Positions 6,197 to 38,115 of a stretch of DNA of 38,950 nt are shown here, piece by piece. The stretch is taken from NCBI GenBank assembly GCA_949743265.1, contig CATJSX010000040.1:1-38950 (forward strand), in the 5' to 3' direction. The position numbers were made by a program, and so were the translations under genes. This DNA is from an uncultured Peptococcaceae bacterium (GTDB lineage: Bacteria > Bacillota > Peptococcia > Peptococcales > Peptococcaceae). Position 1 is the first letter of the stretch. Each line of letters begins with the position of its first letter. The notes below the pieces were generated by a model. The model did no database searches, was not told the DNA's origin, and saw nothing but the letters and a program-made list of their open reading frames with translations.

Positions 6197-7543
6197 ATGA
6201 TGACCAATAAATTGGGAAATACCATAGAAAAGCAATTTTGGAAATTTGTTCTGCCCAGTATGCTAACGATGGTTTTAGGTGGATTTTATGGTATTGTCGA
6301 CGGTTTTTTTATTGGCAATGCCGTTGGTGATGAAGGATTAGCGGCAATCAATCTGGCATGGCCTTTGACAGCGCTCATTTTAGCGACCGGGACAGGCCTT
6401 GGCGTTGGTGGTGCGGTGCTAATGAGTACAAAGATTGGTGAAGGACGTATTCAAGAAGCGGCAAGAGCTAAAGGTAACTGTTTTTCGTTACTTTTGTTAA
6501 TATCTGTTATTTTTACGATTTTATTTATGTTGACAGCTTCATATATTATGCGCTTTTTCGGTGCAGAAGGTTATGTTTTAACGTTATGTATTGATTATAT
6601 TCAAATAATTGTTTTAGGAGCGTCTATGCAAATTATTGGCGTTGGCTTGACGCCAATTCTGCGCAATCATGGGCATACTGTTTTGGCAATGACCATTATG
6701 ATCAGCGGTTTTATTACTAATATTGTTTTAGACGCTATCTGCATTATGGTGTTTGATTGGGGATTAGCTGGCGCTGCAATTGCTACTGTAGCTGGTCAAA
6801 CATTAGTTACTGTCTGCACTTTGACGGCTATTTTTATCAATAAAGAAATGCGTATCAAACCGACAGAAATGAAATTGATTCGCTCAACGGCAGCTACCAT
6901 TGTTCGTATTGGATTGTCGCCTTTTGGTTCGTCACTGGCACCTTCGTTGGTTATTGTGATTTGTAATTGGCAATGTATTCGCTATGGCGGCAATTTGGCT
7001 GTAGCAGCTTATTCTGTACTTTCTTATATTCTGTTTTCTGCCAATTCTTTGATGGGCGGCGTTGGGCAAGGTATTCAGCCTATCATCAGCCATGCTAACG
7101 GTGCAAAGCATTATCCTGCTATTTTGCAAATTCGTCGCAAAGCAATCGCTTTGATTCTGTTCATTAGCGTGGTGCTTTTTGGGCTTTGCTTACCAGCTCA
7201 AACCGTTATTGCACAATTCTTTGGTTTATCAGCGGAAGCGTCAATAATTTTTGCTCGGAGTTTATGGATTTCTAGTTTTGCTTTTCCTTTTATTGGCGTA
7301 GTTAAGTTGGCGGCGGAATTTTTTTGTGCCATCAATAAAACCAGTAATTCATCAATTTTGATCTATTGTGATCCGTTACTGCTGTCACCATTGGCTTTTG
7401 CTATTTTACCGCTGATTTTCAAGTTAGATGGCGTTTGGTTAGCGTTACCAGTAGTGCAAATAATTTTAGCAATAGTAGCAGTTAGGATGTTCAGCCGTTA
7501 TGAACGAAAATTGAAATATATTATTAGCGTGTCAAGCAAATAA
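6197..7543 (+). CDS. MATE-family multidrug/toxin efflux transporter
   Basis: A 448-residue polytopic inner-membrane protein, the usual size for the MATE (NorM/DinF/MepA) family, with about twelve hydrophobic segments in two similar halves. The N-terminal part shows the family pattern: PSMLTMVLGGFYGIVDGFFIG, then GLAAINLAWPL and a Gly-rich stretch (GTGLGVGGAVLMS). Such proteins export cationic drugs and toxins in exchange for Na+ or H+; the substrate cannot be told from sequence. Two ATG codons follow one another (6197 and 6200) after GAGGTGAT; either could be used. The gene appears to be transcribed alone from the promoter just upstream. Confidence 0.9.
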   Translation: MMTNKLGNTIEKQFWKFVLPSMLTMVLGGFYGIVDGFFIGNAVGDEGLAAINLAWPLTALILATGTGLGVGGAVLMSTKIGEGRIQEAARAKGNCFSLLLLISVIFTILFMLTASYIMRFFGAEGYVLTLCIDYIQIIVLGASMQIIGVGLTPILRNHGHTVLAMTIMISGFITNIVLDAICIMVFDWGLAGAAIATVAGQTLVTVCTLTAIFINKEMRIKPTEMKLIRSTAATIVRIGLSPFGSSLAPSLVIVICNWQCIRYGGNLAVAAYSVLSYILFSANSLMGGVGQGIQPIISHANGAKHYPAILQIRRKAIALILFISVVLFGLCLPAQTVIAQFFGLSAEASIIFARSLWISSFAFPFIGVVKLAAEFFCAINKTSNSSILIYCDPLLLSPLAFAILPLIFKLDGVWLALPVVQIILAIVAVRMFSRYERKLKYIISVSSK

Positions 7544-7605: not shown

Positions 7606-7705
7606 AATCGTTTATGGTCGATTTTGAAAGTATAACTGTCATAAGAAACGATTAGCGAGAAGCTCAATTCCATAGGGTATAATAAAGATAAAGGAGTTGA
7701 TAAAA

Positions 7706-8260
7706 TTGAAACGAGATATTGAACGAGATATCATGCCAGAAATCATTGAGCGATATTCAACAAGATATTTTAATTCGGAACCTGTGCCGGAAAAAGATAT
7801 TAACGATATTTTATTGGCGGCAACATTAGCGCCGTCAGCTTATAATGAACAGCCATGGCGTTTTTTTGTAGCGAGTACTGAAGAAGATCGGCAGATGATC
7901 ATGGAGTATATGACGCCTAGCAATATTGAATGGGCAAAAGAAGCGCCGGTTTTGATTGTGGTGGCGGGAGCGCTGTACGAAACGCATAATGGATTGTTTA
8001 ATTACTGGGGAGCCTTTGACAGCGGTTGCGCATGGGGGTACTTATCATTGGAAGCGGCGCGTAAAGGTTATGTTACGCATTGCATGGGAGGATTTGATCG
8101 ATTCGATTTGAAACGAGAGTTTAATATTGGCGATAATCATGAGCTTTATGGCATTATTGCTTTGGGTAAGCCAAGTGATAGTGAAGCTGTATTAAATGAA
8201 AAACCCGGCGGACGTAGACGAATGAGTGAAATTATGTTAAAACGAGCAAAGAAGGAGTAA
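7706..8260 (+). CDS. Nitroreductase-family FMN flavoprotein
   Basis: A 184-residue cytoplasmic protein of the nitroreductase fold. The N-terminal FMN-phosphate pattern RYSTRYF, the APSAYNEQPWRFFV segment (typical AxSxxNxQPWxF) and the C-terminal ALGKPSD, near the family's xxGxP motif, are all visible, and the length is normal for single-domain members. These enzymes reduce nitroaromatics, quinones or other electron-poor compounds with NAD(P)H; the physiological substrate is unknown. The start is taken as TTG 7706, nine bases after AAGGAG; an earlier in-frame TTG at 7697 overlaps that site and an ATG at 7733 would cut into the conserved start. Terminator-like hairpins flank it on both sides. 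Confidence 0.85.
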   Translation: MKRDIERDIMPEIIERYSTRYFNSEPVPEKDINDILLAATLAPSAYNEQPWRFFVASTEEDRQMIMEYMTPSNIEWAKEAPVLIVVAGALYETHNGLFNYWGAFDSGCAWGYLSLEAARKGYVTHCMGGFDRFDLKREFNIGDNHELYGIIALGKPSDSEAVLNEKPGGRRRMSEIMLKRAKKE

Positions 8261-8493: not shown

Positions 8494-8847
8494 ATGGAGG
8501 AGAGCTTAGTTTGTGAGGAATTTTGTGCTCATGAGCATATTTTAGCACATTTTGCCGATAAGCGTCTAAAAGAAGAAACGGCTTTGTCTCTTACAGAGCT
8601 TTTTAAAACACTATCAGAGCCGACAAGGGTTAAAATCTTATATTATTTGCTTCAGGAGCCGTTATGCGTCTGTGATCTCAGTGTTTTAGTTGGCGCTAGT
8701 CAGTCGGCAATTTCCAACCAACTACGAATTTTGCGTAACAGCAAGATTGTTTCTGGTCAAAAAGATGGCAAGCAAGTGATTTACTCTATTCGTGATGAAC
8801 GAATCAGGGAATTGCTTGATCTAGGATTAGATTGTTTGACTGTTTGA
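8494..8847 (+). CDS. ArsR/SmtB-family metal sensor of the CadC type
   Basis: A 117-residue winged-helix repressor. It carries all four thiolate ligands of the N-terminal (alpha3N) site of Staphylococcus aureus CadC at the same residue numbers: Cys7 and Cys11 in the N-terminal arm and Cys58 and Cys60 in LCVCDLS. The recognition region (GASQSAISNQLRILR) and the wing (KDGKQVIYSIRD) are typical. The second (alpha5) zinc site seems degraded: the position matching CadC His103 is Arg in RDERIRE. CadC proteins sense Cd(II), Pb(II) and Zn(II) and repress the exporter cadA, but no exporter adjoins this gene; the nitroreductase lies upstream and the hydrogenase operon downstream. Start ATG 8494 follows GAAGGAGAAAG. 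Family assignment is firm, the regulated target is unknown. Confidence 0.88.
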   Translation: MEESLVCEEFCAHEHILAHFADKRLKEETALSLTELFKTLSEPTRVKILYYLLQEPLCVCDLSVLVGASQSAISNQLRILRNSKIVSGQKDGKQVIYSIRDERIRELLDLGLDCLTV

Positions 8848-9148
8848 CTGTTGAAAGAAAAATTATGGTTATTGAGGTAAGAAGAAAGAAGCGAATTGTG
8901 CAGCATTTCACAATTAAAAAGCTGTTGCTTATTTTTCGTCTAGGTAATACAATATTATTAAGAAGAATGACACTTTTTATTGATTATTATCGGTTAGTGT
9001 GTTCAGGCTCTCTATTAAAAGGAAAACTTTTGATGAGCCTAAATATAAATCACAGTCTTAAGTAGAGGACATTTCGGCATTCATAAATTCGATTATTATT
9101 TTGTGAGTGAGTCCTTAATTTAAAATTTATATGTATGGGGTGAAAAAA

Positions 9149-10735
9149 ATGCAAAAACACGAAGAAGTAGAAAACAAAGGCATCAGCAGAAGACGTTTTC
9201 TAAGTGTTATGGCAGGAGCAGGGGTAGTAGGTGCGACGGCAACAATGACAGGCTGTTCACCAGTAAGCGATCCAAGCGGTACAGGTTGGCTTCCAAATCA
9301 ATATCGCAGTGCAAGCGCTATTCCGGCACAAGTAAAAGGACGGGTTCCATTGGATCCAAACAACAGATCTATTGTAAGAAATGATGAAAAATGTATCTTG
9401 TGCGGTCAATGTATTGAAGCCTGTGAAAAAGTACAGAGTGTATTTGGGTTTTACGAATTGCCAGTTCAAGACGATTTTATCTGCGTTCATTGTGGACAAT
9501 GTTCTTTATGGTGCCCAACAGGTGCAATTAAGGAAAGAGAAGACATTGAAAAGGTTAATGCTGCGCTTAATGATCCTGAGACTATCGTAGTGGTTCATAC
9601 TTCACCAGCTACTCGTGTAGGCATTGGCGAAGAATTTGGTATGCCTGCTGGCGCTTGGGCAGAAGGGCAACAAGTTGCCGCTTTGCGTGCCTTGAATTTC
9701 GATTATGTCTTGGACACGAACTTTAGCGCTGATTTGACCATTATGGAGGAAGGTTCTGAATTAGTTCAGAGAATTACGACTGGCGGCGTTTTGCCACAGC
9801 TGACTTCTTGCTGTCCGGGATGGGTAAAATTTGTTGAATATTATTATCCAGATTTGATTGCCAATCTTTCTAGCGCTCGCTCACCAACCATGATGCATGG
9901 TTCTACTATTAAAACTTATATGGCAGAAAAAAGAGGAATTGATCCTAAAAAGATTTTCAACGTGGCGATTATGCCTTGCGTAGCCAAAAAATTTGAAATA
10001 GATCGTCCTGAATTCAATGCTGCTGGTAAATACGTACACAATGATGAAAATATGCGCGACATGGACGCTATTTTGAGTGTGCGTGAATTGGCGAATATGA
10101 TTCGCCAAGCTGGTATTGACTTCAATTCTTTGCCGGCTGATTCGCCATATGACCAATATGAAGGCATTGGTTCCACTGCTGGATTGATTTTCGGTAATAC
10201 TGGCGGCGTTATGGAAGCAGCAGTCAGAAGTGCGTATTATTTAATTACAGGTAGTCAACCGCCAGAATTGTTGTATCATTTAGAACCAGTTCGCGGTTTG
10301 GAAGGGATTAAAAAGGCAACTTTAAATATTCCCGGCGTCGGCGATGTCACTGTTGCCGTTGCTTCTGGGTTAGGTAATGCACGAAAATTATGCGAAGATA
10401 TTCGTGCTGGTAAAGCTGATTTTCAATTTTTGGAAGTTATGGCTTGCCCCGGTGGGTGTATTGCTGGCGGCGGTCAACCAAGAACTGCTGTACCTCCGCA
10501 AGACTGGGTACGTCAGTCCAGAATTGACACGATTTATGCTAAAGATAATGCTGGAGATGTATTGGATTCCAAAGAAAATGGCGGTACAATAAATGTTAAA
10601 TTGTCTCATGAAAATCCAGAAATCAAGAAAATTTATGAAGAATATTTGGGGGCTCCGCTAAGTCATTTAGCGCATGAGTTATGCCATACGAGCTATACAT
10701 CCAGAGCAGATTCGATTAAACCAAAAAATGTTTAA
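9149..10735 (+). CDS. hydA: Tat-exported [FeFe] hydrogenase, catalytic subunit
   Basis: A 528-residue [FeFe] hydrogenase predicted to act outside the cytoplasmic membrane. It begins with a twin-arginine signal (SRRRFLSVMAGAG, residues 13-25), followed by TMTGC, a possible lipobox with Cys36. Two [4Fe-4S] motifs follow (CILCGQC from Cys82; CVHCGQC from Cys112). The H-cluster motifs are complete: TSCCPGW (Cys221 for proton transfer, Cys222), MPCVAKKFE (Cys277) and MACPGGC (Cys433, Cys437). The last 60 residues (SHENP...IYEEYLG...LAHELCHTSY) match the small-subunit domain, here fused to the large subunit. Start ATG 9149 is chosen over 9131 because GGGGTGA precedes it. It is first in an operon with a HybA-like and a HybB-like gene, so H2 oxidation linked to the quinone pool is the likely role. 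No hydEFG maturation genes are in the window. Confidence 0.93.
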   Translation: MQKHEEVENKGISRRRFLSVMAGAGVVGATATMTGCSPVSDPSGTGWLPNQYRSASAIPAQVKGRVPLDPNNRSIVRNDEKCILCGQCIEACEKVQSVFGFYELPVQDDFICVHCGQCSLWCPTGAIKEREDIEKVNAALNDPETIVVVHTSPATRVGIGEEFGMPAGAWAEGQQVAALRALNFDYVLDTNFSADLTIMEEGSELVQRITTGGVLPQLTSCCPGWVKFVEYYYPDLIANLSSARSPTMMHGSTIKTYMAEKRGIDPKKIFNVAIMPCVAKKFEIDRPEFNAAGKYVHNDENMRDMDAILSVRELANMIRQAGIDFNSLPADSPYDQYEGIGSTAGLIFGNTGGVMEAAVRSAYYLITGSQPPELLYHLEPVRGLEGIKKATLNIPGVGDVTVAVASGLGNARKLCEDIRAGKADFQFLEVMACPGGCIAGGGQPRTAVPPQDWVRQSRIDTIYAKDNAGDVLDSKENGGTINVKLSHENPEIKKIYEEYLGAPLSHLAHELCHTSYTSRADSIKPKNV

Positions 10736-10756
10736 AAGACGGGAGGTTGATAGATT

Positions 10757-11587
10757 ATGTCAAGCAAAAAAACAACACCAAATAAAGGTGTATTGGTTGA
10801 TCTGACCAAATGCGTCGGTTGCGGTAGCTGTACAGTCGCCTGCAAGCTGTGGAACAATCAGAGCTTCCAAAATCCTGAAAATAGAGAAGAAGAGTTTCGC
10901 AATGCTCATGGTGAAAATGTAAAATTAGATTCCAACACATGGACGACAGTTGAGCACATGAAAGTTCAAAAAGATGGCAAAGAAGTTTGGCGTTATGTTA
11001 AAAGACAATGTATGCACTGCCAAGATCCATCTTGCAAATCAGTTTGTTTTGCTAATGCATTTCATATCACAGAAGAAGGTGCTGTTCAGTACAATCCTGA
11101 ATTATGCGTTGGTTGTCGTTACTGCATGATTGCATGTCCTTTTGATATTCCTAAATACGAATGGGAAAAAGTCATGCCGTCTGTTATGAAATGTCAATTC
11201 TGTTCCTCAAAATTGGCAGAAGGCGAAGCGCCGGCTTGTGCTAGCGTATGCCCAACGAATGCGCTTATTTTTGGCGATCGTGAGGCTTTATTAGCGCAAG
11301 CTCATGCAACGATTAGCGCTAATCCAAATTTATATATTGATCATGTTTATGGTGAAAGTGAAGTTGGCGGTACCAACTGGCTCTATATTTCCGATGTTCC
11401 TTTCGGTGATTTAGGCTTCCCAACAAATTTACCAATGGGAAAATCAGTGCCAGAAAATATTCATGGTTTTACTCGGTTTACACCGTTTATTTTTGCCGGC
11501 GGCGCAGCATTATGGACAGGGGTTCATCTCTATTCCAAACGTCGTCATGCCGTAGCAGAAGCGGAAGGAAATGAAAAACACGATTAA
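10757..11587 (+). CDS. hybA: HybA-like four-cluster ferredoxin subunit with C-terminal membrane anchor
   Basis: A 276-residue iron-sulfur protein of the HybA/DmsB/FdhB class. Four cysteine groups bind four [4Fe-4S] clusters: CVGCGSCTVAC, CMHCQDPSCKSVC, CVGCRYCMIACPFDIP and CQFC...CASVCPTNA. A single hydrophobic segment near residues 247-266 (FTPFIFAGGAALWTGVHLY) followed by KRRH is a C-terminal anchor, as in HybA of E. coli hydrogenase 2. There is no signal peptide, so it would have to cross the membrane bound to the Tat-carrying HydA, or else work on the inside. It starts 21 bases after hydA with GGGAGG upstream. It should pass electrons between HydA and the membrane subunit encoded next. 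Confidence 0.88.
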   Translation: MSSKKTTPNKGVLVDLTKCVGCGSCTVACKLWNNQSFQNPENREEEFRNAHGENVKLDSNTWTTVEHMKVQKDGKEVWRYVKRQCMHCQDPSCKSVCFANAFHITEEGAVQYNPELCVGCRYCMIACPFDIPKYEWEKVMPSVMKCQFCSSKLAEGEAPACASVCPTNALIFGDREALLAQAHATISANPNLYIDHVYGESEVGGTNWLYISDVPFGDLGFPTNLPMGKSVPENIHGFTRFTPFIFAGGAALWTGVHLYSKRRHAVAEAEGNEKHD

Positions 11588-11628
11588 TGAACAGAGCTCT
11601 TAGCTTGAAAAAAAGGGGAGGTTAGATT

Positions 11629-12804
11629 ATGTCATCTCGCAGATGGAATTTCCGCATTACGCCGGTAAGAATAGGCATGTTTGCTATTTTTGCGCTGGCT
11701 ATCTTGATGATATTATTTCGGTATTACACAGGTTTAGGTTATACTACCAATTTGTCTGATGAATGGGCGTGGGGCGCATGGATCATGGCTGATATGAACG
11801 TTATTGCTTTGGCTGGCGCTGGTTTTAGTATGGCGATCATCACTCATGTCTTTCATGTTGAAAAATATAAACCATTATCCAGACGTTGTTTATTGATTTC
11901 TTTCATTGGCTATGTCTTGGTATTGTTGATTTTGATTATTGAAATTGGTCGTTGGGATAACTTCTGGCGTCCATTCGTATCGCCAGGTATTCATTCGCCA
12001 ATGTTTGAAGTTTACATGTGTATCGTAGCTTATATGATTTTACAGGTGATTGAATTAGTTGAAGTCGGTACAGAAAAAGTTGCGCCAAAAGTTAATCATA
12101 AAATGCATAAATTTATGCCCGTTGTTTTCATCATTGCGTGTGTTGTACCTCTAGGTCATCAGGCTTCTTTGGGATCTTTATATTTGGCAATGCCTGCCAA
12201 ATTAGATGGCATTTGGGCAACTCAAATGATGCCTTGGCTGTATCTGTTGTCAGCATTTTTTGTAGGTCCGGCAGTTGCTATCGTTGAAAATATTTGGAGC
12301 AACCATCGTTACAATATGCCTACTGATACCAAAATGTTACATGGATTAACGAGAATTTCCGCTTGCTGCATGGTCGTTTATTTTGTTTTAAAAACGGTTG
12401 ATTTGGTTACTCGTGGACAAATTGGTAATGTTTTTGCTTTTGATTTGCAAGGCAATATGTTTATTTTAGAAATGTTTGCTTTGTGTATTTTGCCAATCAT
12501 TATTAGCTTTTTGCCAGTAGGTAAAACAGTTGGCGGATTGTTGATTTTTGGTTTGTCTACAATGGTTGGTTTAGTATTGACTCGTTTCAATACGGTTTAT
12601 ACAGGTATGGTAGAACATTTGGGCGCTACTTATTTCCCATCGTTCTTAGAACTTTTCACTACGGTTGGTTTGTTCTGTTTAGCTTTCCTAGCGTATTTGT
12701 ACATCACAGAAAACTTCCCATTCTTCTATGGTGTTCCTACTGATGCTCAAGATAAAGAAGCAGCAGAAGCTTCCGAAAGTGGCTTCAATCAGGCTATTAT
12801 GTAA
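11629..12804 (+). CDS. hybB: HybB/NrfD-family integral membrane subunit
   Basis: A 391-residue protein with about ten membrane segments, of the HybB/NrfD/PsrC family, which binds menaquinone and exchanges electrons with a HybA-type ferredoxin without heme. The N-terminal region (GLGYTTNLSDEWAWGAWI) and the segment LVLLILIIEIGRWDNFWRPF are typical of HybB. It is last in the hydA-hybA-hybB operon, 41 bases after hybA, with a GGGGAGG site, and is followed by a strong terminator. The set predicts an H2:menaquinone oxidoreductase in which the usual [NiFe] catalytic dimer is replaced by an [FeFe] enzyme. Confidence 0.88.
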   Translation: MSSRRWNFRITPVRIGMFAIFALAILMILFRYYTGLGYTTNLSDEWAWGAWIMADMNVIALAGAGFSMAIITHVFHVEKYKPLSRRCLLISFIGYVLVLLILIIEIGRWDNFWRPFVSPGIHSPMFEVYMCIVAYMILQVIELVEVGTEKVAPKVNHKMHKFMPVVFIIACVVPLGHQASLGSLYLAMPAKLDGIWATQMMPWLYLLSAFFVGPAVAIVENIWSNHRYNMPTDTKMLHGLTRISACCMVVYFVLKTVDLVTRGQIGNVFAFDLQGNMFILEMFALCILPIIISFLPVGKTVGGLLIFGLSTMVGLVLTRFNTVYTGMVEHLGATYFPSFLELFTTVGLFCLAFLAYLYITENFPFFYGVPTDAQDKEAAEASESGFNQAIM

Positions 12805-12816
12805 ATAATATTAAAG

Positions 12817-12867
12817 AGGACCGTTGCAAACGAGTATGTCAAACTCGGCAATGCAGCGGTTCTTTTT
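12817..12867 (+). terminator. Rho-independent terminator of the hydrogenase operon
   Basis: AGGACCGTTGCA pairs along its full length with TGCAGCGGTTCT (two G-T pairs), an inner CGAGT/ACTCG hairpin extends the structure, and TTTTTG follows. It begins 13 bases after the hybB stop. Confidence 0.85.
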
Positions 12868-12869
12868 GT

Positions 12870-13432
12870 TGTATATCATGCAATGTAGACGACTAAGAAG
12901 TTTGTTTCTTGCTTTGCACATCATAAAGTTAAAAATGCTGAAATTCTTTGAGTGTTGCTTGTATTGGTGAAACGTTATGAAATCGTGCGTGTCAGCATGG
13001 TTAGCGAGTTTTGGACAAGTGCATATAAGTTTTGCGTTTAGTGGAAATGTGCATTAAAAAGTAGAGTGTTATATATGATGGTCTGCTTTTATTTTGCATT
13101 ATTTTTCAGTAACCTTTGTTTAGGCATAAGTGCAAAAACCGAGTAAATGCTAGTAAGGCATCAAAATTAGCGTGATAAACTAGCTGATTTAATAATTAGT
13201 GTGAAAGTCACTAATTAGCGCTAATTTTCTTTGCCGCCAAAGAAGGTTTAAAATCAGGGAAAACAGTTTCGCAGATTATTGTTCGTTAAATCGTATTGCA
13301 CCGATAATTTTTGGCTTTGATTGGCTTAGAAATACCAATACCACTGACTGCGAAGATGCACCGATTTATCAAATTTTTGCTGAAGAATATGGAGAGGATT
13401 TTTCTTGTCAAATTTTAAATAACACGCAACAA
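12870..13432. other. Long intergenic region with nested inverted repeats
   Basis: About 560 bases without a recognisable gene between the convergent hydrogenase operon and rpsO. At 13163-13228 AAAATTAGCG pairs with CGCTAATTTT, and nested inside it TAATTAGTG (13193-13201) pairs with CACTAATTA (13209-13217) around a 7-base loop. Downstream, one plus-strand frame over about 13215-13494 is open and partly protein-like (DAPIYQIFAEEYG) but has no ATG or ribosome binding site and runs through the rpsO terminator, so it is at most a gene remnant. Confidence 0.4.
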
Positions 13433-22773: not shown

Positions 22774-23616
22774 TTAGTATTCTGCAGGCAATTTTTTCAG
22801 TTGTTCTTGTGTAAACACTGGTCCATCAAGGCAAACGTAACAAGAACCAATATTGCAGCGGCCACATTTGCCAACACCGCATTTCATACGCATTTCTAAC
22901 GTTGTAATAATATCTTGATCACTAAAGCCTAACGCTGACAAAGCAGGCAAAGAAAATTTGATCATAACTGGCGGTCCACAAATGATAGCGACTTTTGGTG
23001 TTGGCGCTAATTCTTTGATATAATCGGGCACAAAACCAACGTGTCCTTTCCAATCTTCTTGTGGTCGGTCAATAGTAACATAAACATTCATATTTTTCAC
23101 TTGAGGCCAATGTTCAAACAGATCCTCTTTAAAACAAAGATCTTCTTTTGAACGAGCGCCATAGATTACTGTCAGCGTGCCAAAATTTTCTCTATATTTC
23201 ACACAGTAATCAATCATGCTTCTTACCGGCGCTAAGCCAATACCACCAGCAATAAAAAGCATATCTTTGCCTTGACAATATTCTAAAGGAAAACCGTTGC
23301 CATAAGGTCCCCTAACGCCTACTTGCTGACCTTCTTCCAATTGATGCAAAGCGTCAGTTAAATGGCCTGTCGCCTTAATTGCCATATCAATGCTATTTTC
23401 CTCTTGAGCCGTAATAGAGAACATTGCTTCACCTATTGCTGGCAAAGAAAGCATTCCCAGCTGTCCGGGATTAGGGGTAAATGGTTTCAGACCGTCTAAA
23501 GAAGAAATGCGAAATGTTTTAACATCGCTGGATTCTTCTCTAATAGCAGTAATAACGCCTACTGTTGGTGTCAGACAGTTAATGCGCAAAACATCTTGTG
23601 CTGTTGCCTTTGTCAT
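22774..23616 (-). CDS. flxA: Flx-type NAD(P)H/FAD oxidoreductase subunit (FlxA)
   Basis: A 280-residue ferredoxin-NADP-reductase-like flavoprotein. An FAD-binding beta barrel (with RGPYGNGFP) is followed by a nucleotide-binding domain (FIAGGIGLAPVRSMI, VIYGARSKEDL, CGPPVMI) and a C-terminal [2Fe-2S] motif CGVGKCGRCNIGSCYVC like PyrK and AsrB. In the known FlxABCD-HdrABC complexes this subunit takes electrons from NADH. ATG 23616 follows CAGGTGAGCGT, 4 bases after flxB. It is the last gene of a seven-gene operon and is followed by a strong terminator. An AsrB-like sulfite reductase subunit is the alternative by homology, but the hdr neighbours decide for FlxA. Confidence 0.88.
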   Translation of the reverse strand: MTKATAQDVLRINCLTPTVGVITAIREESSDVKTFRISSLDGLKPFTPNPGQLGMLSLPAIGEAMFSITAQEENSIDMAIKATGHLTDALHQLEEGQQVGVRGPYGNGFPLEYCQGKDMLFIAGGIGLAPVRSMIDYCVKYRENFGTLTVIYGARSKEDLCFKEDLFEHWPQVKNMNVYVTIDRPQEDWKGHVGFVPDYIKELAPTPKVAIICGPPVMIKFSLPALSALGFSDQDIITTLEMRMKCGVGKCGRCNIGSCYVCLDGPVFTQEQLKKLPAEY

Positions 23617-23620
23617 ACGC

Positions 23621-24628
23621 TCACCTGCTTTCTTCTTTCATAACTTGCTGAACAAATTTGCTGATATCAATATTCATAGGACATTTGGTCAAACAGCGAC
23701 CGCAGCCAACACAAAGAAACATTTGATGTTTTTCGTAAAAGTATTGCAATTTGTGTAGGAAACGATTGCGAATCCGTTCTTTTTTGCCCGTTCTGGGCTG
23801 GTGTCCGCCAGCCATTAAGGTATATTCATCAAACATGCAGCTGTCCCATGTCCGTAATTTTAAACCGTCTTCACCGCGCAGTTTGTTATTGATATCAAAA
23901 CAATGACAGGTCGGGCAGAGATAAGTGCAAGTACCGCAACCCAAACATTTAAACATAAAATCGTTCCAAATAGGCGCATCAAACGTTGTACTCAATTTTT
24001 CTGGCAATCCTTCGGTTTTTAGCTGCAATTTTCGTTCCGGTACAGGTGGCAAAATAACGTTATCTTGATTAGAAAGCAGCTCTGCCGCTTGTGATAAAAC
24101 TTTTTCTCCGCGTTCATTAAGCGCTTCAAAAGCAAATTGATCGCCTAAATCATAAACTTCTACATCAGCTGCCGCAGGATTAGCTTTTTCTGGATCAACG
24201 CCCATGGATGTACAAAAACAGCTTTCTTTAGAACCATTGCAACGCAAAGCAAAAATCGTTGTTATTTCGCGTTTTTTAGCATATTGTTGATCGGTGTATT
24301 CCGGCGACATGAAAACTTTATCTAAGCAAACAATTCCTTGCACATCACAATGGCGCACAAAAAATAAAACTTGCGGCGTTTGTTGATTTTCCATTTCTGC
24401 AATAAGCAAATTTTTTCCTTGTGCTTTGAAACGGTAGATAGCTTCCGTTTGCGGCAAAAAAATGCCTTTGGGTGAAACAGTGGGCTTACCATCTAGTAAA
24501 AGCGTCATCTGCGCCTGATAAGGAGCATATTGGCTTAGTCCATCTACATCAGTCGGAACAATTACCGGTTGATGTTTAGCCAACATCTGCAAAAAATCGT
24601 CAAGTTTACTCTTTTCTAATATCTGCAT
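23621..24628 (-). CDS. flxB: Flx iron-sulfur subunit with two 4Fe-4S motifs (FlxB)
   Basis: A 335-residue cytoplasmic iron-sulfur protein. The first two thirds resemble AsrA/Hmd-like 4Fe-4S dicluster proteins (with FFVRHCDVQGI and CFCTSMG), and the C-terminal third has two [4Fe-4S] motifs, CLGCGTCTYLCP and CVGCGRCLTKCP. It should relay electrons between the FlxA flavin and the other subunits. The ATG at 24628 is chosen because GGGGGTG precedes it; the frame starts with a GTG nine bases earlier. The gene lies 12 bases after flxC and 4 before flxA. Confidence 0.83.
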   Translation of the reverse strand: MQILEKSKLDDFLQMLAKHQPVIVPTDVDGLSQYAPYQAQMTLLLDGKPTVSPKGIFLPQTEAIYRFKAQGKNLLIAEMENQQTPQVLFFVRHCDVQGIVCLDKVFMSPEYTDQQYAKKREITTIFALRCNGSKESCFCTSMGVDPEKANPAAADVEVYDLGDQFAFEALNERGEKVLSQAAELLSNQDNVILPPVPERKLQLKTEGLPEKLSTTFDAPIWNDFMFKCLGCGTCTYLCPTCHCFDINNKLRGEDGLKLRTWDSCMFDEYTLMAGGHQPRTGKKERIRNRFLHKLQYFYEKHQMFLCVGCGRCLTKCPMNIDISKFVQQVMKEESR

Positions 24629-24640
24629 AGCCAACACCCC

Positions 24641-25531
24641 CTACATAAATTCTTCAGGATCATCTTTTTCAAAATGTCCTAAGGGCGGCTGCCCTTCAAT
24701 AGATAAGCCCGCATCGTAGTCGCCGAAAAGCAAATCAATATCTTTTATCAGTTTTTTATTCATCAGCATAATAGGAATATTAGCGGGACAAACATATTCG
24801 CACTGACCGCATTCAATACAACGACCGGCAATATGAATCGCTCTCGTCATCGCATAGAATTGATTTTCTGAGGCATTGACGTCTTTGCTGTTCCAGCCGG
24901 AAGTAGCCTGGTCAAAAATACACTTGCGACAGTTACAAGCGGGACAAACATTACGACAAGCGTAACAGCGAATACATTTGGTATGTTCTTTTTGCCAAAA
25001 TTCATATCGTTCATCAGCACTCATTTGCTCAATAGCTTCTACATCGCTGAAATCTACTATTTTTTGGCGAGGCGTTACTTCTTCAGTCAGCAATTCATCA
25101 TAAATAACGGGATTAGGGTAGCGACAGCTTTGACAAATTTTTGCCAGCGGAAGGTCGTCGCCTTCATTTTTGCTTTGAGCAAGACGATGATCTTTCATAC
25201 CTTCGCAAGGAATACCGATAATATAAGTTTTTTCACGCTCGATTTGCTTATCTTGCAATAAGCGATTAAAAGCGCGGCTGTCACATCCTTTAAGAAATAA
25301 GGCGATTTTTTCATTAGTAAAGCGAAAATCCAATAAATATTTGCTCAAATTATTTTGACAAAAATCATTCCAAACCAATTTATCGGCATCTTCCGCTTGC
25401 CGAATTAAAATTGGCGTAGATTGATACCAAAACGTACCAGCTTCCCAGCCAAGCACCATAGTTACGGCACCGCTATTTAAAAGCTCTTTTGCTCTCTGGC
25501 GCATTTTTGTCTGAATGGCTTCTTGATTCAT
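24641..25531 (-). CDS. flxC: Flx iron-sulfur subunit, FrhB/FdhB-like (FlxC)
   Basis: A 296-residue protein with an N-terminal region resembling coenzyme F420 hydrogenase/formate dehydrogenase beta subunits (FLKGCDSRAFNRLLQ, IGIPCEGM, CQSCRYPNP) and two C-terminal [4Fe-4S] motifs: CIRCYACRNVCPACNCRKC and CIECGQCEYVCP. It corresponds to FlxC of the FlxABCD-HdrABC complexes. ATG 25531 overlaps the flxD stop as ATGA and uses GGAGGCGAT inside flxD as its ribosome binding site. Confidence 0.82.
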   Translation of the reverse strand: MNQEAIQTKMRQRAKELLNSGAVTMVLGWEAGTFWYQSTPILIRQAEDADKLVWNDFCQNNLSKYLLDFRFTNEKIALFLKGCDSRAFNRLLQDKQIEREKTYIIGIPCEGMKDHRLAQSKNEGDDLPLAKICQSCRYPNPVIYDELLTEEVTPRQKIVDFSDVEAIEQMSADERYEFWQKEHTKCIRCYACRNVCPACNCRKCIFDQATSGWNSKDVNASENQFYAMTRAIHIAGRCIECGQCEYVCPANIPIMLMNKKLIKDIDLLFGDYDAGLSIEGQPPLGHFEKDDPEEFM

Positions 25532-26022
25532 TGATTATCGCCTCCTTCATTAGGCAATAGAGTTTCTGTCGGAAAATAATCGCACAACTTTTGATTCGGT
25601 CCTATTGCTTTAATGGCAGCGGTAATATCGGTAACAACTTCCTGAAATTTTGGCCCTTCTGCGCCGGAAATCCAACGCACATGAAACCGCTCGCTGTCAA
25701 TACCAACAAAATCCAGCAGTCGCTTAGTTAATAAAAACCGTCGTCTGGTATAATAATTGCCCGTTGTATAATGGCAATCGCCGGGATGACATCCTGCCAC
25801 TAAAACGCCGTCAATACCTCTTTGAAAAGCGCGAATCACAAACTGAGGATTCACACGACAAGAACAAGGAACTCGTAAAACGCGCACATTAGGCGGATAT
25901 TCCAAACGACTTAGCCCTGCCAGATCAGCCCCTGCATAAGTACACCAATTGCAAGCAAACACTAAAATCTTAGGCTCAAAACCATTTTCAGCAGTTTTTA
26001 TTTGTTCTGTATGGTCTGACAT
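25528..26022 (-). CDS. flxD: MvhD/FlpD-type [2Fe-2S] linker subunit (FlxD)
   Basis: A 164-residue protein of the MvhD/FlpD family, which passes electrons to HdrA. The family cysteine pattern is complete: CNWCTYAGAD (Cys24, Cys27), VPCSCRV (Cys53, Cys55) and GCHPGDCHY (Cys78, Cys83). It overlaps the end of hdrA by 25 bases and the start of flxC by 4, so the three are translationally coupled. Its place between HdrA and FlxC matches the physical order of electron flow in the known complexes. Confidence 0.92.
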   Translation of the reverse strand: MSDHTEQIKTAENGFEPKILVFACNWCTYAGADLAGLSRLEYPPNVRVLRVPCSCRVNPQFVIRAFQRGIDGVLVAGCHPGDCHYTTGNYYTRRRFLLTKRLLDFVGIDSERFHVRWISGAEGPKFQEVVTDITAAIKAIGPNQKLCDYFPTETLLPNEGGDNQ

Positions 26023-27995
26023 AACGCATCCACCTCCGCTAAGATTTGTTCATTGGTAAAATGACGTAAGTTGATAGAACTGCTGCGACAAGTAACCGTA
26101 CACGCTCCACAGCCTTGACACAAACTGGTATTAACATTAGCTACACTACGAGTAATCGTTTGACCCAAGAGCCGCTCTTCGATGGTTGTTAGACTAATTG
26201 CATGATATGGGCAAACGTCGACGCAGTGACCACAGCCAGCACAGGTTTTTGTATCAACTTCTGAGGTAATTGGTTCCGTTTCTAACATATCTTTAGAAAG
26301 CAATGCACAAACTTTGACCGCAGCAGCGCCAGCTTGCGCTACTGAATCGGGAATATCTTTCGGTCCTTGACAAGCGCCGGCGAGGAATACACCAGCGGTA
26401 TGAGTTTCTACTGGTGCTAATTTGGGATGACTTTCTGTATAAAAATCATCTTTATCATAGCTGAAACCCACCAACTGAGCAATTTTAGCGGCATCGGCAT
26501 TAGCTACCATGGCTGTCGCCAAAACAACCATGTCCGCTTCAATTTCTACAGGACGTCCCAATAAAGTATCCTCACCTCTAACCCGCAGTTTATCGCCGTC
26601 TTGCGTGATTTTAGATACTCTGCCGCGAATATAGTGAGCGCCATACGTTTCGGTTGTCCGATTATAAAATTCTTCGTAGCCTTTGCCCGGCGTGCGCACA
26701 TCCATGTAAAAAACATAAACGTTGGAGTCTTTGATTTTTTCTCTGACCAGCGTTGCTTGTTTTGCCGTATACATACAGCAAGTTCTGGAGCAGTAAGCTT
26801 TGCCTTTGGTTTCATCACGAGAACCGACACATTTAATAAAGACCACGTTTTTGGGTTCAGTATGATCGCTGGGGCGTTTGATTTTACCCATAGTAGGACC
26901 AGAAGCATTGATTAACCGTTCAAAATGCAAACCCGTAATAACGTCAGGGTATTTGCCATAGCCATATTCACCGTAAACGCTATGATCGAAAAGTTCATAA
27001 CCTGTAGCCATTACGATAGCGCCGTAACGGGTCGTTACCAGTTCGTCTTCTTGTGTGTAGTCAATAGCGCCGGTAGGGCAAATTTTTTGACAAAGACCAC
27101 ACTTGCCAGTTTTAAATTTCAAACAATGTTCGCGATCAATAACAGGTTTATTAGGAATAGCTTGAGGAAACGGTGTAAAAATTGCTTTGCGTTTAGTCAT
27201 ACCCAATTCAAATTCGCTATCCACTTTCGTTGGGCATTTGCCCCAACAAGTTCCACAACCAGTACACTTGTTAAGATCAACGCTTCTAGCTTTGCGACGA
27301 ATAGTAACGTCAAAATTACCTACATAACCTTCAACTTTTTCTAATTCAGCATACGTAATTAAATTGATATTAGGATGGCTGGAAGCTTCTACCATTTTCG
27401 GTGTTAAAATACATGCCGAACAATCCAGCGTAGGAAACGTTTTATCAATTTGCGCCATCTTACCGCCAATAGAAGGCTGTTTTTCCAGAATATCTACTTG
27501 ATAACCATTATTGGCAATATCAATAGCTGTTTGGATTCCGGCTATACCGCCGCCAACTACCAAAGCACGTTTGGTAACAGGTGAAAAAGATTTCGCTAAC
27601 GGGGCATCGTGACTGACCTTGGCTACTGCCATTTTAACCAAATCAGTTGCTTTAGCGGTTGCTCGTTCCATATCGTGGGGATGTACCCACGAACATTGCT
27701 CGCGAATATTAGCCATTTCTAATAAATAAGGATTTAAACCTGCATCAGCAATGCAGCGACGAAAGGTTGGCTCATGCATTCTGGGCGAACAAGAAGCGAC
27801 GACAACGCGATCTAATTTTTCGCGTTTAATCGTTTCTTTAATCATTTCCTGTCCCGGCTCAGAACACATATATTTATAATCGGTACTAAAAACAACGTTA
27901 GGATAGCCTTTCAAATTTTCAGCTACTTGAGCGCAATCTACGCTAGCTGCAATATTGGTTCCACAATGACAAATAAAAACACCGACTCTTTTCAC
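25998..27995 (-). CDS. hdrA: Heterodisulfide reductase-like flavoprotein subunit A
   Basis: A 665-residue HdrA, the flavin-bifurcating subunit of Hdr complexes. It begins with the Cys-containing N-terminal domain (VGVFICHCGTNI and VVVASCSPRMHEPTF), then the FAD-binding GGGIAGIQTA near residue 148, a [4Fe-4S] motif CTGCGTCWGKCP, a second one in CGLCQKICPTGAID, and a C-terminal ferredoxin domain with CAGCGHCVDVCP and CQGCGACTVTC. Length and domain order match methanogen and sulfate-reducer HdrA. In these systems HdrA bound to HdrBC and the Flx module couples NADH oxidation to reduction of ferredoxin and of a disulfide. It overlaps hdrB by 4 bases. Confidence 0.95.
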   Translation of the reverse strand: MKRVGVFICHCGTNIAASVDCAQVAENLKGYPNVVFSTDYKYMCSEPGQEMIKETIKREKLDRVVVASCSPRMHEPTFRRCIADAGLNPYLLEMANIREQCSWVHPHDMERATAKATDLVKMAVAKVSHDAPLAKSFSPVTKRALVVGGGIAGIQTAIDIANNGYQVDILEKQPSIGGKMAQIDKTFPTLDCSACILTPKMVEASSHPNINLITYAELEKVEGYVGNFDVTIRRKARSVDLNKCTGCGTCWGKCPTKVDSEFELGMTKRKAIFTPFPQAIPNKPVIDREHCLKFKTGKCGLCQKICPTGAIDYTQEDELVTTRYGAIVMATGYELFDHSVYGEYGYGKYPDVITGLHFERLINASGPTMGKIKRPSDHTEPKNVVFIKCVGSRDETKGKAYCSRTCCMYTAKQATLVREKIKDSNVYVFYMDVRTPGKGYEEFYNRTTETYGAHYIRGRVSKITQDGDKLRVRGEDTLLGRPVEIEADMVVLATAMVANADAAKIAQLVGFSYDKDDFYTESHPKLAPVETHTAGVFLAGACQGPKDIPDSVAQAGAAAVKVCALLSKDMLETEPITSEVDTKTCAGCGHCVDVCPYHAISLTTIEERLLGQTITRSVANVNTSLCQGCGACTVTCRSSSINLRHFTNEQILAEVDALCQTIQNK

Positions 27996-28876
27996 TGCCC
28001 GCCACCCCCTGTAGTTGGTTCGATTTTGTTTAATAAATCTATCGCTGGCACAAAATGCCGATCAATGCCCAAAGATTTCGGCGGCAGATTTAAGGCAATT
28101 CCCAATAATTCTGTAATGTAATATACAGGCAAACCATAATGAACGCCTTTTTTCTTGCCGATTTGTTCCTGACGCATATCCAAATTAGCCATACACATTG
28201 GACAAGCGGTAACAATGCAATCTGCACCGCTTTTTTGAGCATCATCTAAAATTTTCTCAATCATTGGAAAACCAACGGTACTTTTGCAAGCTGATAGACT
28301 AGCGCCGCAGCATTCTGTCTTAGAAGACCATGACATAACTTCTGCGCCTAAAGCCGTCATAATCTCATCCATGCTGATGGGATTTTCGGCATCGTCAAAA
28401 GCTGTTTTCGTTGGTCGTACAAATAAACAACCATAGTAAGTCAATACTTTTAATCCTTTTAAAGGCTTCTGCACTTTTTGCTTAATCATTTCTGTGCCTA
28501 AATCATGATAAAAAACATCAACCAATGCTCTGGCTTTGCTTTCGCCTTTGTATTCCCGTCCAATCATCATGGCTACTTTGCGGCGAGTATCATCTGATTC
28601 TTTGACTGCCAGTTCGACATTCTTACTTCTGGCATAGCAAGCAGCACAAGGAATAGCGACGTCAAGTCCAGCTTCTTCAGCAATCGCCATATTTCTAGCC
28701 GGTAATCCCAATGCCAAATAAGGATTAGTAACATGAGCGCTGCTTGAACCACAACAATTCCAATCGGGAATTTCCCACAACTCTACATTCAGAGCTTTGC
28801 AAACCGCTTTTGTAGAAAGATTGAATTCTATCCCTGTTGAATCCAGTGAACAGCCCGGATAATAAGCATATTTCAT
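27992..28876 (-). CDS. hdrB: Heterodisulfide reductase-like subunit B
   Basis: A 294-residue HdrB with two CCG domains, which hold the non-cubane [4Fe-4S] clusters that reduce disulfides in methanogen HdrB. The first domain has PGCSLDSTG, WNCCGSSSAH and CAACYARSK; the second has YYGCLFVRP, TECCGASLS and CPMCMANLD. All expected cysteines appear present, so a heterodisulfide-type reaction is possible, although the bacterial substrate (in D. vulgaris linked to DsrC or thiols) is not known here. ATG 28876 follows AGAGGGGCGATAG; the frame is open to 28903 without a site. One base separates it from the hdrC stop. Confidence 0.93.
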   Translation of the reverse strand: MKYAYYPGCSLDSTGIEFNLSTKAVCKALNVELWEIPDWNCCGSSSAHVTNPYLALGLPARNMAIAEEAGLDVAIPCAACYARSKNVELAVKESDDTRRKVAMMIGREYKGESKARALVDVFYHDLGTEMIKQKVQKPLKGLKVLTYYGCLFVRPTKTAFDDAENPISMDEIMTALGAEVMSWSSKTECCGASLSACKSTVGFPMIEKILDDAQKSGADCIVTACPMCMANLDMRQEQIGKKKGVHYGLPVYYITELLGIALNLPPKSLGIDRHFVPAIDLLNKIEPTTGGGGQ

Positions 28877-28877
28877 A

Positions 28878-29465
28878 CTATCGCCCCTCTCTAAATTCGG
28901 CAAGATCTTGCTGCATTAGTTGCTCGGCGGTTTCAAAAATACGCTTGATGTCGTCTTTCTGCTTTGGCCGATAAGGCAGCAGATTCAATTTTCGTTTCAC
29001 CAAATAAGGGATCCCATAGGAAAAATCTTTCAGCAAATGACCCGTCGTTACGTTGCGTCCGACAATCAACCCTGGTTCGTACATTCTGCCGAAACCTTTC
29101 ATCAGACCAATATAAATATTATGAAACTTATCAATATCTTTTTCTGGAATATAGCCTCGCTCTTTAGCCATAATCCGCAAAGTTTCCATTTCATGAGCAA
29201 TATCTACTCCTTTAGGGCAGCGAACGGAACAAGTGGAACACCCTGCGCAAAGCCAAATCGCTTTTGATTTTAAGGCTTCTTCCACCAGACCTAATTGAAC
29301 CAAACGCATTACTTGTCTGGGCATTATGTCCATGTAATCGGCTACAGGACAGCCGCCGCTACATTTGCCACACTGATAGCATTTAGCTGCTTCTACATGG
29401 CTGCGTTTTTGCAATTCTTCAGCAGCGTTTTTACTCTTTGCTTGAGATTGGCTGAACTCCTCCAT
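28878..29465 (-). CDS. hdrC: Heterodisulfide reductase-like subunit C
   Basis: A 195-residue HdrC with two classical [4Fe-4S] motifs, CYQCGKCSGGCPVADY and CAGCSTCSVRCPKGVD, and a helical C-terminal part. It wires HdrA to HdrB. ATG 29465 is chosen because AAGGGGAG lies upstream; the open frame extends to 29549 across the promoter. It is the first gene of hdrCBA-flxDCBA. Confidence 0.92.
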   Translation of the reverse strand: MEEFSQSQAKSKNAAEELQKRSHVEAAKCYQCGKCSGGCPVADYMDIMPRQVMRLVQLGLVEEALKSKAIWLCAGCSTCSVRCPKGVDIAHEMETLRIMAKERGYIPEKDIDKFHNIYIGLMKGFGRMYEPGLIVGRNVTTGHLLKDFSYGIPYLVKRKLNLLPYRPKQKDDIKRIFETAEQLMQQDLAEFREGR

Positions 29466-29514
29466 ATTATTCTCCCCTTCATTCCTAATTTTCAACGCGT
29501 CATACGATAGTTTT

Positions 29515-29593
29515 ATTATACACCACCTCTTTTGCATTTTGCCATACAAAAAATATACCGTCCATTAAATTGTTAGTAATTTTTTTCACTAAC
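29515..29593 (-). promoter_or_regulatory. Promoter and upstream inverted repeat of the hdr-flx operon
   Basis: A perfect -10 TATAAT (29515-29520, minus strand) lies 50 bases before the hdrC start, but no good -35 is found at the right spacing, which suggests an activator. About 65 bases upstream, GTTAGT (29572-29577) and ACTAAC (29588-29593) form an inverted repeat with a 10-base spacer. A second similar repeat lies at 29714-29733. Confidence 0.45.
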
Positions 29594-36433: not shown

Positions 36434-38115
36434 TTATCTGTGTTTATCACGAAAAGCAACTTTGATGGTATCGTTGTCTTTTTCGATGGTTTGGAATTTA
36501 TTATTGTACAAGGGATTCGTATAGGTGTAATCAGTTCTGTTATGACATTTGCCCCGCGTTTCTTTTCTGCCTTCAGCAGAAATTGCCGATGCTTCTGCAA
36601 CATCTAACATATCCAATACTTCTAAACAGCGCATCAATTCATGGGCATTTTCCGCTTTTAATTGTTCATGAGCATATTTTTTTAAGTCGCTAATATATTT
36701 AATTCCCGATTTTAACAATGTTTCTGAACGGACTTCTGTTCCGACATATTTATTCATAATTTGTTGCATGGTAGAATTGGCTTCTTTCCAATGAGCCCCT
36801 GTTTGACGTTCCATAATGGCGCTATAAAGTGTAAGTGTTTCTTGAATCATCGGATGATTGCGCACGTCGTATTCTTCTATCGTTTGAATATAACGATAAG
36901 CGCTTTCGGCATCAATGTGACCGAAAACAGCAGCACTGCTAATGTCTCCGCGCACATTTCCTGTAATATTGCCTGCAGCGAAAAGCCCTTTGACTGTCGT
37001 CATGCCATCAATATCAATATCTAATCCTCTAGCGGTATAGTTATACTCATAAGTGCCAAATTCAACCATATGTTTTTTTAAATCAATATGATACTGTTCC
37101 ATATAGTCAATCAGTGAGGTGTCGCCTTCTGAAACGAACGATTTAAACATATGCGCTAAATCTTCTTCGCTAGTTTCAGAACAATTCATAAATACTGGTC
37201 CTGTACCGTCCTGCATTTTTCACGAAAGACAGTTTGCCAAATATCAGCTGTTACATCGCCTAATTCGCGAGTGGGTTTGGTCACGAAAGGACCTACAGGT
37301 TTGCCGTAATAATCTGTCAGTACGCCAATCCATGTAGCTTTACCACAACGTTGAAACATACTTGGTCCAGCATGAACGTAAGGAATATCCAGATTGACTA
37401 AACGAGCGCCAGCGCGGAAGCCCATAGCAATGCCACTTCCTGTATCAGCAGGACAGTTGCTGGCATTAAAAGGATAGGCTGGATTCATACCGGGATAAAT
37501 ACGCACGCTGTGGCCGGTGCAAACTAAGACGGCTTTGGCTTGAAAGACTACTAATTCGGGCTCATCGTTGGCGATATTGACGCCAATTGCACCGACAACT
37601 CTGCCAGTATCGTCAGTCAGCAACTCATTTACCGTCGTTTTGTTCAGAATACGACAACCATTTTTTAACGCTTGCTTTGTTAACAAAGGTTTTTGGTCAT
37701 GACCATCGTATTTCAAATGATATCGTCTGCGTCCCGGCATAGAATGACCTTCAAAATTCCATTTGCCAGTAGGGCGCATGTTAATTCCGTAGCTTTCCCA
37801 TAATTCAATAACTTCTTGCGAACGTTTCATCATTAAACTTAATAAATCTTTATCTTGCCATGGCCCTACTAGTGTTTCACTAATCTCACGCAGAATTTCT
37901 TCAAAATCATCGCCATGGTATTCCGGGATGTAACAAATAAAATGGTCGTTTCCAGTGGCGCCAGAACCAGAGCGGCGTGTATCGGCTTTTTCTGCTACAA
38001 CGACGTCCATGCCTAAAGCAGAGCCCGTTATTGCTGCTTGCATACCAGCTATACCTCCGCCAACAATTAAAAAATCACATTTTATAATATCCTCTCTCAT
38101 TTTCATCGTCATCAT
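36434..38115 (-). pseudogene. AprA/fumarate-reductase-like FAD flavoprotein, split by a one-base frameshift
   Basis: Two overlapping frames (37186-38115 and 36434-37216) are the halves of one flavoprotein of about 560 residues. The first half has the FAD-binding FLIVGGGIAGMQAA and EKADTRRSGSGATGND; the second has VKGLFAAGNITG followed by SSAAVFGHIDAE, the C-terminal FAD-contact region of the AprA/SdhA/FrdA superfamily. The break is at a run of five A (minus strand, 37216-37220): reading ...REK then out of frame; a sixth A would restore ...REKMQDGTGPV. It may be a recent mutation, an assembly error, or rarely -1 slippage on the A run. The start follows AAGGAGGAATAA and abuts the ferredoxin stop. 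No signal peptide or FMN-binding domain is seen, so it is cytoplasmic and its partner is the adjacent ferredoxin, as in AprBA. Substrate unknown. Confidence 0.85.

Follow-up and report, generated by a model that had tools for sequence, protein, structure and literature searches.

An operon for a predicted exported [FeFe] hydrogenase with HybA- and HybB-like partners in a gut Peptococcaceae genome, a likely outward-facing H2:quinone oxidoreductase

A module composed of a group A [FeFe] hydrogenase that is a predicted lipoprotein of the twin-arginine translocation (Tat) pathway, a signal-less Fe-S protein with a C-terminal tail, and a HybB-like protein was described in Desulfotruncus alcoholivorax, Desulforamulus hydrothermalis, and Proteus (Gallego-Parrilla et al. 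2024, PMC10924467). Earlier genome papers on Desulfotomaculum had already reported [FeFe] hydrogenases that carry a Tat signal and are membrane-associated, in D. ruminis (PMC3569383), D. gibsoniae (PMC4148979), and D. nigrificans (PMC4149029), and in the case of D. nigrificans the enzyme includes a subunit with 10 transmembrane helices and was compared by its authors with extracellular formate dehydrogenase. Here, a trio of this kind, known from sulfate-reducing soil bacteria, was analyzed in a 38,950-nucleotide stretch of DNA from an uncultured Peptococcaceae bacterium (contig CATJSX010000040.1, forward strand), hereafter the window, in which hydA, a hybA-like gene, and a hybB/nrfD-like gene follow one another between positions 9149 and 12804. 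We consider it likely that the product of this operon is an H2:quinone oxidoreductase bound to the membrane and facing outward, the quinol of which is probably re-oxidized by an SdhCAB-type fumarate reductase. A literature search, which reached few subscription journals, found no biochemical study of the trio.

The features of the operon are as follows.

9149..10735, + strand: hydA, predicted exported [FeFe] hydrogenase of group A, small-subunit domain fused, 528 amino acids (PF02906, PF02256, TIGR02512)
9149..9256, + strand: predicted Tat signal peptide, with SRRRFL at residues 13-18 followed by the lipobox-like MTGC with Cys36
9392..9514, + strand: two [4Fe-4S] F-cluster motifs of HydA, Cys82/85/88/92 and Cys112/115/118/122
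9803..10459, + strand: H-cluster motifs of HydA, L1 TSCCPGW, L2 MPCVAKKFE, and L3 EVMACPGGC
10595..10705, + strand: fused small-subunit (Fe_hyd_SSU) domain of HydA, PF02256, residues 489-525 of the 534-amino-acid form
10757..11587, + strand: HybA-like electron-transfer subunit, 276 amino acids, four [4Fe-4S] clusters, no N-terminal signal (PF13247)
11629..12804, + strand: HybB/NrfD-like 10-helix membrane subunit with a putative quinone site and proton path, 391 amino acids (PF03916)
about 12808..12872, + strand: intrinsic terminator hairpin at the operon end, -30.6 kcal/mol, ending in UUUUU

An earlier note on this DNA, made from the letters alone, had described one operon for a Tat-signal [FeFe] HydA, a four-cluster HybA-like protein, and a HybB/NrfD-like protein, closed by one terminator, and this description was borne out by the coordinates, the domains, the 16 cysteines of the HybA-like protein, and the hairpin. 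The hydA start at ATG 9149 is preceded by a GGGGTG ribosome-binding site and agrees with the starts of relatives, while an alternative in-frame ATG at 9131 gives the 534-amino-acid form. The gaps between hydA and hybA and between hybA and hybB are 21 and 41 bases, respectively, and both downstream genes have good ribosome-binding sites. Directly 3' of hybB, the terminator hairpin has a z score of -6.4, and none of 200 shuffled sequences was equally stable. A promoter and terminator scan of the + strand found no convincing terminator between the three genes, and an Rfam search of the whole window found nothing.

HydA was matched by PF02906 (E 4e-86) and by the small-subunit profile PF02256 (E 3e-17), and it scored 463.4 bits against the group A model TIGR02512, above the curated cut-off of 405.95. 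Its best matches in the Protein Data Bank (PDB) were HydA1 8a6t and DdHydAB-type chains. All eight F-cluster cysteines, a pattern found in 50 of 51 relatives, and every H-cluster cysteine are present, and the L1-L3 motifs are intact. At the N-terminus, SRRRFL comes first, then a hydrophobic stretch and the sequence MTGC. All trio HydA proteins whose N-terminus is complete have the twin-arginine motif. Moreover, 45 of 49 relatives have a lipobox-like cysteine, and in 35 of the 49 the lipobox is canonical (LSGC, LAGC, or IAGC), with L069 and L117 among the exceptions. As this cysteine is so widely conserved, HydA is probably a Tat lipoprotein. TatC is encoded in the genome of the window, as is HydG, the H-cluster maturase searched for (TIGR03955, 901.7 bits), and tatC adjoins hydA in several relatives (Desulfallas, Soudan_19, and D. 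copahuensis).

Solo Tat-lipoprotein HydA paralogues without hybAB were also observed in six gut Peptococcaceae (L047-L052, with open reading frames (ORFs) starting at 7178, 7000, 992, 150, 2273, and 7179). In all six, L2 has TPC rather than MPC, L1 has TSCCPAW rather than TSCCPGW, and EEA replaces EEG. The H-cluster site is otherwise complete, and these substitutions, which lie in its second sphere, are fixed. The genes beside these paralogues vary between genomes.

Exactly 16 cysteines, arranged as four cluster motifs of which the first starts at residue 19, are present in the HybA-like protein, which is 34% identical to E. coli HybA in the alignment. Its score against the HybA equivalog NF008134 was 218.6 bits, below the cut-off of 263. 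The top-scoring NCBIfam model for it was HmcB (NF045715), again under the cut-off, with 274.6 bits versus 420. The cut-off of the HmcC model NF045714 was missed as well in these searches, with 156.4 bits versus 550. A twin-arginine motif was found in none of 45 [FeFe]-linked and none of 12 formate-dehydrogenase-linked HybA-like proteins, while it was present in both [NiFe]-linked proteins, in 20 of 26 others, and in E. coli HybA. Without an export signal of its own, the HybA-like protein, judged by its N-terminus, would have to cross the membrane together with HydA, by hitchhiking on the signal peptide of the latter.

HybB was matched by PF03916 (58 bits versus 25.8) and scored 221.9 bits against the HybB equivalog NF008133, below the cut-off of 450. 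A sequence search of the PDB with HybB gave no match, but a fold search did. The AlphaFold model had a predicted local distance difference test (pLDDT) score of 84.5, and its ten best Foldseek matches were all ActC, ActF, or PsrC chains; accordingly modelled, HybB is predicted to have the NrfD fold. Residues R85, Y95, E142, H177, and D55 align with R89, Y99, E148, H184, and D58 of E. coli HybB. According to PMC8076601, which cites Lubek et al. 2019, replacement of E. coli R89, Y99, E148, or H184 lowers H2 oxidation, and PMC13059093 reports that replacement of D58 abolishes menaquinone reduction. QrcD, which is related to HybB, reduced menaquinone electrogenically in liposomes with protons from the cytoplasmic side, and HybB was argued to operate in the same way (PMC6303296).

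To what extent the three genes occur together was surveyed in 398 genomes sampled evenly across the phylum. A HydA was counted as Tat-type when it scored at least 510 bits and its N-terminus was matched, unless a contig end cut the gene. Tat-type HydA was found in 26 of the 398 genomes and was clearly separated from cytoplasmic group A enzymes. In all 26 carriers, hybA lies beside at least one copy of Tat-type HydA, and hybB comes next in 25 (the exception being G396). As the order of the trio recurs across genomes, it is not due to chance. Within the family of the window, hydA-hybA-hybB was found in 10 of 12 other genomes, one of them cut by a contig end. Further families of the order carry the trio as well, as do Desulfosporosinus, Desulfallas, and Desulfotomaculum-type genomes, a metagenome-assembled genome (MAG) of Desulfobulbus (L089), and a MAG labelled Proteobacteria (L088). 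In G335, hybA is broken by an insertion. An inserted region inside hybA, with a 461-amino-acid ORF on the opposite strand, was seen in one genome of the phylum (L192:10701-13271).

In the HydA tree, the Tat-type enzymes form one clade with a long stem among other group A enzymes (Shimodaira-Hasegawa-like approximate likelihood-ratio test (SH-aLRT) 100), which indicates a single origin, and a polyphyletic HydA was rejected. Copies without hybAB are nested within this clade. A protein that lacks the signal (L199/L172) and whose branch is very long also falls there and may be misplaced. In the case of HybB, a single clade (SH-aLRT 99) holds the proteins from [FeFe] loci together with those from Bacillota formate dehydrogenase loci, and the two kinds of partner are interleaved within it. 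On forcing the formate-dehydrogenase-linked HybB into one clade in a reduced set, the cost was 214 log units (approximately unbiased (AU) test, p 4e-34). Thus, the HybAB module was swapped repeatedly between Tat [FeFe] hydrogenases and Tat formate dehydrogenases, while no swap with hydrogenase 2 was visible. The HydA and HybB trees agree in placing the family of the window beside L175 and L179.

Assembly by module exchange, as proposed earlier, is upheld by these partner swaps, but the origin from [NiFe] hydrogenase 2 that the proposal implied is not. The nearest HybAB modules stand beside Tat formate dehydrogenases, and HybB of E. coli hydrogenase 2 is placed outside the clade, with a long branch that leaves its exact position unsure. 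The missing Tat signal of the HybA-like protein, which E. coli HybA has, and the missed HybA and HybB equivalog cut-offs also speak against that source. Accordingly, the label HybAB is not to be taken as descent from hydrogenase 2. At five loci with hybAB-type genes nearby, and in most of them with tatC nearby (L067, L071, L078, L080, and L084), the alpha subunit of a Tat formate dehydrogenase appeared split by an in-frame stop into about 200 and 810 amino acids. This stop codon probably encodes selenocysteine.

From gene content, motifs, synteny, phylogeny, and the predicted HybB fold, we infer the export route, assembly, direction, coupling, and acceptor of the complex. HydA would receive its H-cluster in the cytoplasm and bind the signal-less HybA-like protein there, and the folded pair would then be exported by the Tat pathway on the HydA signal peptide. 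On the outer face, HydA would be anchored by a lipid on Cys36 and the HybA-like protein by its C-terminal tail. HydA would split H2 outside the cell and release the protons there, and the electrons would pass through the two F-clusters and the four HybA clusters to a quinone site of HybB near the outer face. If HybB draws the quinol protons from the cytoplasm, as the work on HybB and QrcD suggests, H2 oxidation would build a proton motive force. As the functional residues of E. coli HybB are conserved and QrcD reduces menaquinone electrogenically, energy-conserving H2:quinone oxidoreduction is the most likely reading.

The metabolic context was examined by family searches of the host assembly (3.04 Mb in 208 contigs, 98.4% complete, not closed), to which all statements of absence from the genome refer. 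Its close relatives in the genome collection compared are gut and rumen Peptococcaceae MAGs. Neither the [NiFe] large subunit PF00374 nor a molybdopterin oxidoreductase was found in this genome. The genome does encode a cytochrome b558-type SdhCAB, clustered with genes for fumarase and malic enzyme, and this gene set makes a natural fumarate-reducing branch; re-oxidation of the quinol by SdhCAB would probably give H2-driven fumarate respiration. Two further [FeFe] hydrogenases are encoded, namely, a cytoplasmic NADH-type group A6 enzyme and a third, distant one.

It is unlikely that the complex works mainly in reverse, with quinol electrons leaving as external H2 at the expense of the proton motive force, a mode suggested for E. 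coli hydrogenase 2 on glycerol and likewise for syntrophs. In its favor, modules of the HybB/QrcD kind are reversible (PMC6303296), the trio occurs in Desulfotomaculum-type bacteria capable of syntrophic growth (PMC4149029), and the same module serves formate dehydrogenases in Pelotomaculum. However, electron transfer from H2 to menaquinone is strongly downhill by the established potentials, the group A6 enzyme is available for H2 production, and the fumarate reductase is available as a sink for quinol.

Several observations weigh against H2:quinone oxidoreduction by an outward-facing complex. The lipobox MTGC of the HydA in the window is a weak, non-canonical match. Similarly, the C-terminal tail of the HybA-like protein is weakly hydrophobic, with a maximum hydropathy of 1.13 over 17 residues compared with 1.88 in E. 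coli HybA and a range of 1.05-2.14 among HybA-like relatives. Moreover, the genome search found no MenB and no MqnA, and MenD only below the cut-off, and neither the classical nor the futalosine route to menaquinone was found; de novo synthesis looks absent from this genome, which is 98% complete and not closed. Five other trio-carrying genomes of the family gave no MenB and no MqnA, except for one weak MqnA match (G009). The earlier proposal of an H2:menaquinone oxidoreductase is supported as regards the exported [FeFe] subunit with a quinone-reductase module and is weakened at the menaquinone step.

MenA was found in the genome (NF004749, 397 bits versus a cut-off of 277) and is kept in the family. 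Stand-alone menA genes were observed at L146:6887-7906 and L148:6174-7070; an ABC transporter and a GntR-type regulator are encoded close by, and no other men genes occur in the stretches read. The quinone might be completed from an imported precursor or made by an unrecognized route, or HybB might use something else. Other bacteria are reported to grow on an imported quinone precursor. We tentatively suggest, as a possibility, H2:fumarate respiration through [FeFe]-HybAB in which a naphthoate precursor imported from gut bacteria is finished by MenA, so that respiration would be gated by a cross-fed vitamin K precursor.

The missing menaquinone route would also suit a HybB that works without quinone and hands its electrons to a different partner, exported or in the membrane. 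The model would be Dehalococcoides, whose respiratory complex has an NrfD-like subunit and which is described as quinone-free (PMC10772276). This reading of the trio appears improbable, since the family retains MenA, SdhC belongs to the quinone-reactive b558 type, D55 corresponds to the E. coli residue D58 on which menaquinone reduction depends, and no molybdopterin reductase was found in the genome as a candidate partner. A regulatory, sensory, or decayed hydrogenase without a respiratory role has nothing specific in its favor and can practically be dismissed, as every catalytic motif is intact, a sensory domain is lacking, and the trio is kept together across the phylum.

Upstream of the trio, the following genes are located.

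8494..8847, + strand: ArsR/SmtB-family regulator gene (PF01022; NF033788 over the cut-off)
7697..8260, + strand: nitroreductase-family protein gene (PF00881)

In most genomes of the family, both genes precede the trio. The ArsR/SmtB-family protein might regulate the trio operon, and the nitroreductase-family gene is a conserved neighbor of it. Elsewhere in the window, a cluster on the minus strand (22774-29549) resembles FlxABCD-HdrABC, with AsrB-like, AsrA-like, Fe-S, HdrA2-like, HdrB, and HdrC proteins, and likely encodes an NADH-linked bifurcating complex. A flavoprotein resembling fumarate reductase or adenosine 5'-phosphosulfate reductase (36434-38115, minus strand) is spread over two overlapping ORFs in different frames, which points to a frameshift or an assembly error.

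With the family-wide set, the export of a cytoplasm-built [FeFe] enzyme with a signal-less partner, energy conservation by an NrfD-like HybB with a non-[NiFe] catalytic partner, and the passage of one quinone-reducing module among hydrogenases and formate dehydrogenases become testable. In gut ecology, the host would be a possible H2 consumer that is neither a methanogen, an acetogen, nor a sulfate reducer, and it may need a quinone precursor from its neighbors.

On comparing the trio with known systems, the closest kin of its HybA and HybB outside the hydrogenase set were found in the Tat formate dehydrogenase modules of Pelotomaculum and Desulfotruncus arcticus, which share the signal-less Fe-S subunit and a nearby tatC. 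Their catalytic subunit, by contrast, is a formate dehydrogenase of the molybdopterin type that an in-frame TGA apparently splits. E. coli [NiFe] hydrogenase 2 (HybOCAB) likewise passes electrons from H2 to quinone via a four-cluster protein and a 10-helix NrfD-like subunit, with the functional residues conserved, but its catalytic dimer is of the [NiFe] type, its HybA has its own Tat signal, and its HybB is just 25% identical. Periplasmic HydAB of Desulfovibrio has the exported group A core, two F-clusters, and the small-subunit domain seen in HydA of the window, but it consists of two polypeptides, is soluble, uses a c-type cytochrome as its partner, and has no HybAB. The Desulfotomaculum membrane [FeFe] hydrogenases resemble the enzyme of the window in their Tat-signal, extracytoplasmic catalytic subunit, although their hosts are sulfate reducers, unlike the host of the window. 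The D. ruminis-type trio (G242) is a direct homologue, with a HydA identity of 56%. The HydA signal of D. ruminis was interpreted as an uncleaved membrane anchor (PMC3569383), whereas G242 has the lipobox IAGC, which rather points to a lipoprotein, in agreement with PMC10924467. The module of PMC10924467 has a Tat signal with a signal peptidase II-type site on HydA, and the trio shares with it the Tat signal, followed in the window by a putative site of this type, the signal-less Fe-S protein, the HybB-like partner, and both partner genes immediately 3' of the hydrogenase gene. The trio differs from it in its gut Peptococcaceae host without recognized de novo menaquinone genes, its weaker lipobox (MTGC) and C-terminal tail, and the nitroreductase and ArsR genes upstream. 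It was concluded that the trio is a well-supported further example of a module already described (PMC10924467, PMC4149029, PMC3569383, and PMC4148979), not a new enzyme type.

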